Assembly (NCBI RefSeq): GCF_003751945.1
Contig: NZ_RJKL01000001.1
Location: 3,038,001-3,102,000 of the forward strand
Direction of reading: 5' to 3'
Origin: Couchioplanes caeruleus
Lineage (GTDB): Bacteria > Actinomycetota > Actinomycetes > Mycobacteriales > Micromonosporaceae
Length of the DNA stretch: 64,000 nucleotides
The stretch's first letter is position 1, and each line of letters begins with the position of its first letter. A model generated the notes under the pieces. The model searched no databases, had not been told where the DNA came from, and saw nothing but the letters and a program-made list of their open reading frames with translations. The translations under genes and the position numbers were made by a program. Shown here piece after piece: positions 22,727 through 44,138 of the stretch.

Positions 22727-23665
22727 ATGGCCGGATCACGAATCGTCTCTCTCGGCCATTACCAACCGGCCCGGGTGCTGACGAACGACGACCTGGCAGA
22801 GATGGTCGAGACGACCGACGAATGGATCCGCAGCCGCGTCGGCATCGAGACCCGGCACATCGCCTCCGCCGACGAGAGCATCGACGAGATGGCGGAGCAC
22901 GCCGCGCGCAAGGCCCTCGCGGAGAGCGGCGTGCAGGCCTCCGAGATCGACTATGTGATCGTGGCGACCTGCACCGCGATCGACCGCTCGCCGAACATCG
23001 CCGCCCGGGTCGCCCGCCGGTTGGAGCTGCCCGCCCCGGCCGCGCTCGACCTCAACGTCGCCTGCGCCGGCTTCACCCACGCCCTCGCCACCGCCGACCA
23101 GGCCCTCAAGACCGGCTCCGCGACCAAGGCCATCGTCATCGGCGTGGAACGGCTCTCCGACTTCACCGACTGGACCGACCGCAGCACGTGCGTGCTCATC
23201 GGCGACGGTGCCGGCGCCGCCGTGCTCGTCGCCGACGAGGAGGAACACGTCGGCCCCGTGGTGTGGGGCTCGGTTCCGGAAATGTCACAGGCGGTGCGCA
23301 TCGAGGGCCGCGACGGAACATTCCAGCAGGAAGGGCAGAGTGTCTTCCGCTGGGCGACGTACTCGCTGCCGAAAATTGCGCGCCAGGTGTGCGACAAGGC
23401 GGGCGTCCGGCCCGAAGACCTCGCCGCCATCGTGCCGCACCAGGCCAATCTGCGCATCATCGAGCCGCTCGCCCGGCGGATCGGGGCCGGCGACGCGGTC
23501 ATCGCCCGCGACGTGGTCGAGTCCGGCAACACCTCGGCCGCGAGCATCCCCATCGCGCTGTCCAAGCTGGTCATGCGGAGGGAGATTCCGTCCGGGGCGC
23601 CGGTGCTGCTCTTCGGCTTCGGCGGCGGCCTCTCGTACGCCGGGCAGGTCGTGCGCTGTCCGTGA
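22727..23665 (+). CDS. FabH-like 3-oxoacyl-ACP synthase III (KASIII)
   Basis: 312 residues. The catalytic triad is complete: Cys113 (NVACAGFTHA), His238 (VPHQANLRI) and Asn268 (ESGNTSAAS). The N-terminal TTDEWIRSRVGIETRHIA is classic FabH. Start ATG 22727, with AAGGGG at ribosome-binding distance; earlier in-frame starts lie in non-coding-like DNA. It condenses an acyl-CoA with malonyl-ACP. It sits alone on the plus strand at the edge of the isonitrile polyketide cluster, convergent with PKS1. Two roles are possible: starter supply for the cluster, or a drug-insensitive FabH for self-protection, because the related isonitrile antibiotic amycomicin is reported (recalled, not checked) to inhibit FabH. 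It could also be a housekeeping copy. Confidence 0.88.
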   Translation: MAGSRIVSLGHYQPARVLTNDDLAEMVETTDEWIRSRVGIETRHIASADESIDEMAEHAARKALAESGVQASEIDYVIVATCTAIDRSPNIAARVARRLELPAPAALDLNVACAGFTHALATADQALKTGSATKAIVIGVERLSDFTDWTDRSTCVLIGDGAGAAVLVADEEEHVGPVVWGSVPEMSQAVRIEGRDGTFQQEGQSVFRWATYSLPKIARQVCDKAGVRPEDLAAIVPHQANLRIIEPLARRIGAGDAVIARDVVESGNTSAASIPIALSKLVMRREIPSGAPVLLFGFGGGLSYAGQVVRCP

Positions 23666-23678
23666 TCGGGCGCCGTCG

Positions 23679-23711
23679 CATGGGGCCGGGCGCGTCGCGC
23701 CCGGCCCCATG
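23679..23711. terminator. Bidirectional hairpin terminator
   Basis: Perfect 14-bp arms (23679-23692 and 23698-23711) around a 5-nt loop, placed between the convergent KASIII and PKS1 stop codons. It closes the polyketide operon on its 3' side. Confidence 0.85.
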
Positions 23712-23714
23712 CCG

Positions 23715-42026: not shown

Positions 42027-43222
42027 ACGGTCACCGGGAACTGCCGCGGGACCCGGATCAGCCAGGACGGCCGCCAATCGAGCTCTTCCTGCGGAACGGC
42101 GCACTTGATGTTCGGGAACCGGCGGACGAGCTCGCCCAGGGCGATCCGCAGCTCGTTGCGGGCCAACTCCTTGCCCGGACAGTGGTGCGGTCCACGGCCG
42201 AAGCCGAGCTGCTGGTTGTCCGGTCGGTCCAGCCGGAGCTCGGCCGGGCACTCGAAGCGCTCGGGGTCCCGGTTCGCAGCGCCCAGCGAGATGATGACCT
42301 GCTGGCCGGCCTTGATCTGGGCCCCTCCGATGGTCATGTCCTCGATCGCAAAGCGGCGGATACCGCTGTGCGTCGAGCCGTCCCACCGCATCAGCTCCTC
42401 TACCGCGGCCGGGATGATGTCGGGGTTGTCCCGCATCTCCTGCGCCTTGTCGGGGTGGTTGATCAGGGCCAGGACGGAGGCGCCGATCTGCCCCACCGTG
42501 GTGTCGTACCCACCGAGGAGCAGGAAGAAGGTCATGCCGATCATCTCCTGGTCGGTCAGCGGCTGGCCCTCGCTGTCGCGGGCGCTGATCCAGTAGGAGA
42601 TGAGGTCGTCGGCGGGCTCCCTCTTCTTCAGCTCGATGAGCTCCTCCACGAACGCGAGGAGCTTGCCGGCGGCAACCCTGGCAGCGGCCGGGTCCTTGCC
42701 CAGCATCGCGTCGCTCCAGGCGCGGAAGTCGGCACGGGAGGTGTCCGGCACGCCGAGGATGTCGGCGGTCATGGTGATCGGCAGCGGCGCCGCGAGGTCC
42801 GACATGATGTCGCCGCCGCCCTTGCGCTCGATCTCGTCCAGCAGGTCGTTGACGACCTGCTGGATCCGCGGCACCAGCGCCGCCATCCGCTTCGGGGTGA
42901 ACGCGAAGTTCATGAAGCGACGCAGGCGGGTGTGCAGGGGGCCGTCCTCCATGTGGAGGTTTCCGGACCGCACGATCTCCGGCAGCATCTCGTTCTCGTA
43001 GTCGTCGTCGGCGTAGCGGCGGTTGCGCACCAGCCGCTTGTCCTTGAGCGCCTCGCTGGCCTCTTCGTACCTTGTGATCAGCCAGACCGGCGAGCCGTCA
43101 GGCAGGCACACGCGGTGCGCCGGGCCCTCCTCGTGAAGACGCTCGTACGTCGGGTACGGGTCGGCGAACCACTCCTCGTCGTACGGGGAGTCGAGGTTGT
43201 GCACGGGGCACTTCGAGGTCAT
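42023..43222 (-). CDS. Cytochrome P450 (CYP105/107-like, soluble)
   Basis: 399 residues. Heme loop FGRGPHHCPGKE (Cys348), ExxR helix K motif (EELMRW), and I-helix LLLGGYDTTV, where the usual Ala-Gly is Gly-Gly before the Thr pair. No membrane anchor, so it is a soluble class I enzyme needing ferredoxin and reductase, neither encoded nearby. ATG 43222. It lies 31 bp after the ScoE-like gene and overlaps FcoT by 4 bp, inside the isonitrile operon. A likely job is oxidation of the isocyanoacyl chain, such as hydroxylation or epoxidation next to the isonitrile carbon. That is inferred from the cluster, not from the sequence. Confidence 0.9.
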   Translation of the reverse strand: MTSKCPVHNLDSPYDEEWFADPYPTYERLHEEGPAHRVCLPDGSPVWLITRYEEASEALKDKRLVRNRRYADDDYENEMLPEIVRSGNLHMEDGPLHTRLRRFMNFAFTPKRMAALVPRIQQVVNDLLDEIERKGGGDIMSDLAAPLPITMTADILGVPDTSRADFRAWSDAMLGKDPAAARVAAGKLLAFVEELIELKKREPADDLISYWISARDSEGQPLTDQEMIGMTFFLLLGGYDTTVGQIGASVLALINHPDKAQEMRDNPDIIPAAVEELMRWDGSTHSGIRRFAIEDMTIGGAQIKAGQQVIISLGAANRDPERFECPAELRLDRPDNQQLGFGRGPHHCPGKELARNELRIALGELVRRFPNIKCAVPQEELDWRPSWLIRVPRQFPVTV

Positions 43223-43253
43223 CGATGATCCCTTCCGGGGCGTCGGGCGATGG

Positions 43254-44138
43254 TCAGAGCGGCTGGTCGTCGTGGAAGGGGAAGTCGTCGTGCACCGTCA
43301 CGCGGAACGAGACCGTGGGCTCGGGCGTGCTCGTGTGCAGCGCCCGATGGATCAACGCACGGTTGTCCCAGATCAGCAGGTCGCCCTGCTCCGGCGTGAC
43401 GAGGTGGATGCCGGGCCCGGAGAAGCTCGAGTCGTGCTGGCCGGTCTCCTCGAAGACCCGCTGCATGAGCGAGTCGTCGAGCCGGTTGCCGTCGGCGTCC
43501 TCCATCCCGACGGTGAAGCCCTCGCTGTTGTAGAGCACGGTCGCACCGGTCACCGGGTGCTTGAACAGCGTCGGGTGCGCGACCGTGGGCGTCTTGCGCT
43601 CCACTTCCTCGGTGAGCTCGCCGAGCGGCCGGTAGACGTCGGAGGGCCGGATCTTGAAATACCGGCGAACGCTGAACAGCGTCCGGGTGCCGGCGATCTC
43701 CCGCTTCAGATCCTCCGGCAGTCGCTGGTACGCCTGCGTCATGTCGATGTAGTAGGTGCCCCGGTTCTTCGCCGGGATGACCTGCGGGTAGATGAGCGTC
43801 AGGCCGAAAGGCTTCGGCATGAACTGGTAATCCGCGTGCCAGAACTTGCCCGTCTTCGGCACGCCGATCTGCTTGTCCCCGTCGCTGACGTTGGACGACA
43901 CGAAGATGTCCGGCTCTTCCGGGTGGTGGTACATCGGCTCGTAGTACGCCTCGACCCGCCCCATCCGCCGGCCCATCTCGACGAAGGCGGACGGCGCCAG
44001 CGCCTGCCCCTTGAGGATCAGGATCTTGTGCTCGTACACGCCGTTCTTGAGGGCAGCGAAATCATCGTCGGAGGCGGTGGCCGGGTCGAAGCCCCGCACC
44101 GTGGCCCCGAAACCGTTGTCGGTGACCTGCACATCCAT
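43254..44138 (-). CDS. ScoE-type non-heme Fe(II)/2-oxoglutarate isonitrile-forming oxygenase
   Basis: 294 residues from ATG 44138. TauD-like fold with the iron triad His101, Asp103 (FWHADYQF) and His264 (DNRALIHRA), and Arg279 for 2-oxoglutarate. It also has the tyrosine cluster Tyr65, Tyr66, Tyr70 (AYYEPMYHH), Tyr104, Lys162 and His268. These fall at a constant offset of 31 from the ScoE residues I recall (96, 97, 101, 132, 134, 135, 193, 295, 299, 310), so the substrate pocket is conserved, not just the fold. ScoE converts (R)-3-(carboxymethylamino)butanoate to the 3-isocyano acid by two oxidations with loss of CO2. First gene of the operon; the promoter lies in 44139-44302. An upstream in-frame ATG at 44186 is possible. 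Confidence 0.93.
   Translation of the reverse strand: MDVQVTDNGFGATVRGFDPATASDDDFAALKNGVYEHKILILKGQALAPSAFVEMGRRMGRVEAYYEPMYHHPEEPDIFVSSNVSDGDKQIGVPKTGKFWHADYQFMPKPFGLTLIYPQVIPAKNRGTYYIDMTQAYQRLPEDLKREIAGTRTLFSVRRYFKIRPSDVYRPLGELTEEVERKTPTVAHPTLFKHPVTGATVLYNSEGFTVGMEDADGNRLDDSLMQRVFEETGQHDSSFSGPGIHLVTPEQGDLLIWDNRALIHRALHTSTPEPTVSFRVTVHDDFPFHDDQPL

Follow-up and report, generated by a model that had tools for sequence, protein, structure and literature searches.

To our knowledge, few amycomicin-type isonitrile antibiotics have been described. In PMC13273461, FabH is reported as the target of amycomicin in Staphylococcus aureus, and AmcQ, AmcB and three cytochrome P450s (P450s; AmcB/C/D) are reported, citing Zheng et al. 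2024, to form its isonitrile, epoxy and keto motifs. The idea of joining a ScoE-type isonitrile to a polyketide synthase (PKS) had already been published for the aerocyanidin pathway (Zheng, Clardy, Liu 2024, as cited in PMC13273461), and the same source reports the amycomicin cluster in groups within the species Streptomyces virginiae. An amycomicin-type cluster in a Micromonospora has one PKS, with ketosynthase (KS), acyltransferase (AT), dehydratase (DH), enoylreductase (ER), ketoreductase (KR) and acyl carrier protein (ACP) domains in the order KS-AT-DH-ER-KR-ACP, according to PMC9967187. Here we describe a locus in a 64,000-nucleotide stretch of Couchioplanes caeruleus (contig NZ_RJKL01000001.1, positions 3,038,001 to 3,102,000; hereafter the window), which has ScoE, FcoT/ScoD, a free ACP and an acyl ligase in common with the isonitrile lipopeptide clusters (ScoA-E; Rv0097-Rv0101), but carries PKSs where those clusters use a nonribosomal peptide synthetase (NRPS). 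Homology gives good support for placing this locus in the amycomicin-type class, and we consider it likely that it makes an amycomicin-like (epoxy-)isonitrile fatty acid by the path proposed below, with an extra FabH that likely shields host fatty-acid synthesis. Its novel part looks to be the second PKS (PKS2), a variant that begins with a KSQ, a KS in which Gln replaces the active Cys, and has no loading AT; it is predicted to be a built-in maker of the enoyl acceptor of the isonitrile.

The core consists of nine minus-strand biosynthetic genes (window 44138-23715) with intergenic gaps of at most about 31 bases and several overlaps, and the open reading frames (ORFs) of all nine, as well as that of the adjoining fabH, were intact. 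A reading made beforehand from the letters of the window (the sequence-only reading) had proposed these genes as one minus-strand operon with two type I PKSs and no NRPS. Every gene it named was found in place, and no condensation domain was detected, either among 22 window ORFs run through Pfam (two of them probably not genes) or by tblastn at E 1e-3 over the whole window with a Pfam-verified domain from locus L006 as query. At its left border, 22727, a gene is indeed present, but it is the plus-strand fabH and not a member of the minus-strand operon. Pfam placed the oxygenase in the TauD family, while its best match in the PDB was ScoE (446 bits, vs 80 bits for E. coli TauD), with 6l86 (427 bits) and then (3R)-3-[(carboxymethyl)amino]fatty acid oxygenase/decarboxylases (up to 268 bits) as the next solved relatives; it also passed the NCBIfam ScoE equivalog NF049937 (467.4 bits, cut-off 400). 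All ten residues of the iron, CABA (3-[(carboxymethyl)amino]butanoic acid) and 2-oxoglutarate sites were kept (ScoE Y96, Y97, Y101, H132, D134, R157, K193, H295, H299 and R310), among which we take His132, Asp134 and His295 to be the iron ligands. Tyr96, Tyr97, Tyr101, Arg157, Lys193, His299 and Arg310 have been tied to the substrate, the active-site water network and 2-oxoglutarate (PMC7949033). A taurine-dioxygenase identity was rejected on the bit scores and on a 47-row tree including one TauD, in which the protein was placed among the ScoEs. By these sequence measures the oxygenase is a true ScoE, which upholds the earlier call made from iron ligands and substrate residues; grouping with taurine dioxygenases outside ScoE, the outcome named beforehand as counting against the isonitrile-polyketide reading, did not occur. 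The FcoT homologue scored 207.9 bits against PF10862 (threshold 27) and 185 bits against PDB 5wsx.

To place this gene set in context, we scanned one genome per species for ScoE, which gave 166 pattern matches and 104 confirmed relatives; the best 80 were kept, and their surroundings were read by tblastn within fetched stretches that reached at most 10 kb to either side and were in some cases shorter. Nine of the ten key positions were identical in 80/80 of these loci, with Tyr97 being Tyr in 75 and His in 5. FcoT accompanied ScoE in all 80 (in L074 as a 49-residue piece only), a condensation domain (query verified as PF00668) was present in 51/80, a KS on the same strand in 13/80, a KS confined to the opposite strand in 5/80 and neither KS nor condensation domain in 11/80; an NRPS is thus the common partner of ScoE and a PKS a recurrent minority. 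A single clade of PKS-type ScoEs was not shown: it appeared in 7% of bootstrap trees and many deep forks stayed open in the 47-row tree, for which NRPS-type loci had been thinned to 19 of 51 (the solved ScoE being the 20th NRPS row) and loci with neither domain to 6 of 11. At five ScoE-FcoT loci (L025, L039, L044, L045 and L059) the PKS genes lie on the opposite strand; the ScoEs of these loci cluster together (89/93), and the loci are possibly another PKS-isonitrile type.

Two relatives tie the window to amycomicin. In S. virginiae NRRL ISP-5094 (L056, L093-L095), the whole core recurs in the same order, namely ScoE, P450, FcoT, ACP, PKS1, the KS variant KS0, ligase, hydrolase and PKS2, then a 287-aa ORF without a Pfam match and, at the same end, fabH on the opposite strand. 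Identities to the window proteins were 62% for ScoE, 48% for the P450, 67% for FcoT, 46% for ACP, 59% for PKS1, 63% for KS0, 70% for the ligase, 50% for the hydrolase, 49% for PKS2 (1,947 residues) and 70% for FabH. This strain differs in keeping the PKS2 loading AT and in having further PKS, KS, ACP and SDR genes upstream of scoE; besides PKS1 its cluster holds two large PKSs more than that of G591, so its product may not be amycomicin itself. Genome G591, reached by searching 397 genomes of the order for KS0, carries SARP, FabH, three P450s, SDR, KS, ACP, hydrolase, ligase, KS0, PKS1, ACP, FcoT and ScoE (identities to the window: ScoE 61%; P450s 60%, 54% and, for the third, 31%; FcoT 52%; ACP 52%; PKS1 58%; KS0 57%; ligase 62%; hydrolase 48%; FabH 68%; SARP 43%); the 59 kb fetched hold no KSQ motif. 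G591 is probably the amycomicin producer, Amycolatopsis sp. AA4 (which we take to be the strain formerly called Streptomyces sp. AA4), or close to it, a judgement that draws on its three P450s, the number reported for amycomicin.

With the amycomicin cluster (MIBiG BGC0001504), as judged through its probable producer genome G591, the window would have in common ScoE, FcoT, ACP and ligase, the KS-AT-DH-ER-KR-ACP PKS, KS0, hydrolase, P450 and SARP, together with an extra FabH at the cluster, which the amycomicin cluster would have on the evidence of G591. The differences are three P450s there against one here, and the KSQ-led PKS2, which is extra in the window; no separate window counterpart of the stand-alone KS, ACP, SDR and third P450 of G591 was found by tblastn, which returned only PKS domains and the one P450. 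Since S. virginiae and the probable amycomicin producer both have this core, identically ordered and with a fabH of its own, a PKS-based isonitrile antibiotic is already known, and with one P450 instead of three we class the window cluster as a variant rather than as the amycomicin cluster itself. The proposal of the sequence-only reading, an isonitrile acid priming a polyketide or fatty chain as in amycomicin, is supported as to class, the gene set and order being the same in S. virginiae and G591 and the adjoining fabH fitting the FabH target. Its hint of novelty survives for the PKS2 variant and falls for the general concept of a ScoE isonitrile with a PKS, already published (Zheng et al. 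2024, cited).

In PKS2, Pfam resolved two KS, one AT, DH, KR and two ACPs, and the first KS carries the KSQ mark (VVDSGQSASL). The S. virginiae PKS2 has a KSQ and then a loading AT with a YASH motif, presumably of the methylmalonyl type. This AT is cleanly absent from PKS2 of the window, Mangrovihabitans endophyticus and G186, where the alignment shows the KS linker joining the post-AT linker directly, and PKS2 of Nucisporomicrobium flavum aligns end to end with that of the window (80% over 2,338 residues). The remaining AT has a malonyl-type HAFH motif, and the DH, KR and both ACP motifs are present. A KSQ start followed by one KS-AT-DH-KR round is predicted to end in a 2-enoyl thioester (a crotonyl thioester with an acetyl starter), the class that FcoT/ScoD needs; the NCBI ScoD model names its substrate class as (2E)-enoyl-ACP (enoyl-ACP glycyltransferase). 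A literature search returned no published account of the KSQ-PKS2 arrangement, although its coverage was incomplete, without Zheng 2024 and Pishchany 2018, and is hence no proof of absence.

The cluster FabH scored 301.8 bits against TIGR00747 (cut-off 292.1) and keeps the catalytic Cys-His-Asn motifs. Each of the eight genomes checked with a cluster fabH has another FabH, and so does G591. In a FabH tree of 22 rows (G591 added and four distant KAS III rows dropped relative to the first tree), the nine FabHs encoded at clusters grouped with three Streptomyces FabHs from outside the clusters (100/98); with these three nested inside, an exclusive clade of cluster FabHs was not shown. The ten FabHs preceded by a fabD-like gene all fell outside this group, and the second FabH of the C. 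caeruleus genome is fabD-linked, 65% identical to the cluster FabH and likewise outside. Because the cluster FabHs group apart from the fabD-linked ones, FabH seems to travel with the cluster and not to be a recent host duplicate, a grouping consistent with target-copy self-resistance, which is the likely function predicted for it. G132 is without a cluster-type FabH, and its cluster has a 37% KAS III. As a separate observation, in many NRPS-type ScoE loci (L007-L060) scoE is closely preceded in the same orientation by a KAS III gene, at about position 8,700, whose product is 34-37% identical to the window FabH.

KS0 kept its Cys in 9/10 aligned cluster homologues, window included, with the first His replaced by Gln in 7/10 and the second by Tyr in 10/10. 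Among the 120 matches listed of 133, the three catalytic positions read SQY in 53, CQY in 44, CHY in 17, CQH in 5 and SHY in 1, so that an invariant Cys was rejected (Ser in 54 of the 120). A condensing role appears unlikely for KS0, and acyl transfer is our guess. At E 1e-100 or better, KS0 was present in 8 of the 300 family genomes, counting that of C. caeruleus; the count in the order (16/397) is inflated by 11 fragments of longer open frames that belong to one other family (44-46% identity), which leaves five including that of the window. KS0 as an isonitrile marker was also rejected, as G122 and G505 have KS0 without ScoE; in the G122 KS0, Ser replaces Cys. The SQY-type homologue P0040 (TPA0907_47670, Micromonospora humidisoli) adjoins by locus tag the t1pks-4 PKS (_47680, product 'Unknown') and not the amycomicin-annotated PKS (_29310). 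The nearest solved kin of the window P450 include PikC and the mycinamicin hydroxylase/epoxidase, and ten P450 places elsewhere in the genome are at most 43% identical to it.

Sister clusters in N. flavum, M. endophyticus and G186 have the same core, with proteins 67-96% identical to those of the window. Beside scoE they have, in addition, a divergent phosphonate operon and genes for PlsC, a fatty-acid hydroxylase, an MFS protein, an AprA-like methyltransferase and a KS, whereas in the window PlsC and the phosphonate genes remain as pieces, and the hydroxylase, MFS, methyltransferase and KS genes were not found beside the cluster by homology search. The decarboxylase-aminotransferase fusion, for example, is an ORF of 470 aa in the window vs 762 aa in N. 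flavum. The ratio of nonsynonymous to synonymous substitution rates (dN/dS) was 0.10-0.30 for all nine genes and fabH (vs G186 and M. endophyticus), and by this measure the core is maintained despite its decayed flank. With one P450 and the accessory genes of the sisters broken or not found, the window product may be simpler than theirs. In N. flavum and M. endophyticus (L099:1934-8123; L105) the isonitrile cluster has the phosphonate operon (phosphoenolpyruvate (PEP) mutase, decarboxylase-aminotransferase fusion, oxidoreductase) as its neighbour; in G186 the PEP mutase is seen and the fetched stretch ends there. Between the phosphonate genes and scoE of N. flavum (L099:8422-14274; kin in L101 and L105) lie PlsC, a fatty-acid hydroxylase (PF04116), MFS and an AprA-methyltransferase-like protein, which may decorate the sister products.

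In the proposed pathway, each step of which was drawn from homology, PKS2 would start its own chain, the KSQ decarboxylating malonyl on the first ACP to acetyl, and its KS-AT-DH-KR-ACP module would add one malonyl, reduce and dehydrate to give a crotonyl-type 2-enoyl-ACP. FcoT/ScoD would put glycine on this enoyl thioester and free an N-carboxymethyl-3-amino acid, which ScoE would convert by oxidation and decarboxylation to a 3-isocyano acid. The acyl ligase would then load this acid on the free ACP, and KS0, with its Cys kept and without the catalytic His pair, would hand it on as an acyl carrier. We infer that the isonitrile acid would thus prime a polyketide or fatty chain, which the fully reducing, malonyl-type PKS1 would extend, probably iteratively, before the P450 oxidises it, probably to an epoxide, and the hydrolase releases the acid. 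The fuller proposal, that an isonitrile warhead is built from scratch in one operon (crotonyl thioester from a KSQ mini-PKS, glycine from FcoT, isonitrile from ScoE and a FabH-blocking fatty acid from the reducing PKS) and that the starter changed from propionyl to acetyl when the loading AT was lost, is tentative, and we put it somewhat below an even chance. With such a switch the lineage would make a warhead unlike that of its Streptomyces kin, possibly a natural case of warhead variation through loss of one AT domain. A cluster with its own FabH copy and a predicted acceptor maker of its own would be a self-resistance-guided lead to new members of the amycomicin kind, for which ScoE, KS0 and a cluster-type FabH form a candidate search rule.

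What the sequences show directly is gene content, open frames, motifs, the KSQ, the missing loading AT, synteny, low dN/dS and the FabH phylogeny; the amycomicin-like product is predicted from these, and the recurrence of same-strand KS genes at ScoE loci (13/80) fits it. Several observations weigh on the other side. The window FcoT falls under the cut-off of the ScoD equivalog NF049938 (218.8 vs 250 bits), as do FcoT stretches of other PKS-type clusters (G591 198, S. virginiae 233, M. pattaloongensis 217), and one from an NRPS-type locus passes it (284.9 bits). One cluster P450 faces the three (AmcB, C, D) reported for amycomicin, the amycomicin identity of G591 is itself inferred, and the PlsC, KS, MFS, methyltransferase and fatty-acid hydroxylase genes of the sisters are broken or not found. 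Clusters with PKS1, KS0 and ligase also occur in G122 (L106) and G505 (L152), genomes without a ScoE match at E 1e-15 or better, so this trio is not isonitrile-specific. Lacking a loading AT, the KSQ depends on another AT for its malonyl. The class can also do without PKS2, since no KSQ motif accompanies the ScoE-FcoT-PKS clusters in the stretches fetched for G591, M. pattaloongensis, G132 and G076. Since the acceptor can therefore come from elsewhere, and the window keeps a ligase, PKS2 might instead be a late extender, or supply a further acyl chain for attachment to the isonitrile part, with the enoyl acid drawn from the fatty-acid pool via the ligase as in NRPS-type Sco clusters. We regard this as doubtful, though the strongest competitor, because an N-terminal KSQ plus ACP is a chain-starting arrangement, complete with its AT in S. 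virginiae, and the single extension module ends exactly at a 2-enoyl thioester.

The remaining alternatives are less probable still. That fabH is a biosynthetic priming enzyme and not a resistance copy would agree with its intact catalytic motifs and with the many polyketide and fatty-acid chains started by KAS III enzymes, but its closeness to ordinary FabH (TIGR00747 passed), its position on the opposite strand and the report of FabH as the amycomicin target (PMC13273461) make this unlikely. A decaying cluster that makes nothing, or only a shunt product, would explain the broken PlsC, PEP mutase and oxidoreductase and the sister genes missing beside it; against the intact frames and the low dN/dS of the nine genes and fabH, we judge it improbable. 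A product of the Sco/Rv0097-Rv0101 type, an isonitrile lipopeptide or a metal carrier, would use the same ScoE-FcoT-ACP-ligase set, in line with the 51 condensation-domain loci among the 80, and is hardly credible here, where PKSs sit within the same operon and the window search found no condensation domain. An amycomicin-like isonitrile fatty acid remains the reading that we favour.

Features of the locus are collected in Table 1. Our own gene calls were based on G+C content at third codon positions (GC3), which missed or mis-started some genes, and gaps were filled by homology searches; for the hydrolase, an internal ATG was taken as the start, as the sister genes align from about that Met.

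Table 1. Genes and gene remnants at the isonitrile locus, with positions in the window
Feature	Position	Strand	Basis
scoE homologue, Fe(II)/2-oxoglutarate isonitrile-forming oxidase/decarboxylase	43254..44138	-	PDB ScoE, NF049937, 10/10 key residues
Cytochrome P450	42023..43222	-	PF00067; heme and I-helix motifs; PDB kin; G591 P450 identities
FcoT/ScoD-type thioesterase, predicted glycine adder to 2-enoyl thioester	41430..42026	-	PF10862, NF049938, PDB 5wsx
Free ACP	41044..41430	-	PF00550; Ser motif
PKS1, type I, KS-AT(HAFH, malonyl-type)-DH-ER-KR-ACP, fully reducing	34667..41047	-	Pfam, motifs
KS0, stand-alone ketosynthase variant	33224..34663	-	Active Cys kept; both catalytic His replaced (Gln, Tyr)
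Acyl-AMP ligase	31620..33227	-	PF00501/PF13193; core motifs
Alpha/beta hydrolase, predicted release enzyme	30748..31593	-	PF00561/PF12697; Ser motif
PKS2, type I, KSQ-ACP-KS-AT(HAFH)-DH-KR-ACP, loading part without AT	23715..30737	-	Pfam; KSQ motif; S. virginiae alignment
Cluster fabH (KAS III), predicted target-copy self-resistance	22727..23665	+	TIGR00747; Cys-His-Asn motifs; FabH grouping
SARP-type regulator (BTAD domain)	47123..47953	-	Homology
PlsC-type acyltransferase remnant, broken; intact in sister clusters	44336..44703	-	tblastn pieces, several frames
Phosphonate operon remnants: PEP mutase piece, 5'-truncated decarboxylase-aminotransferase fusion, short oxidoreductase piece	45041..46874	+	Homology to sisters; aminotransferase family; intact sister-gene families

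The SARP-type regulator has relatives beside the clusters of S. virginiae, M. pattaloongensis and G591; the fetched stretches of N. flavum, M. endophyticus and G186 yielded none. Beyond the locus, the window encodes an FxSxx-COOH system TPR protein at 18964-21402 (NF040586, 826 bits) and type II secretion/type IV pilus-like genes (T2SSE, T2SSE, T2SSF) at 48471-52633.

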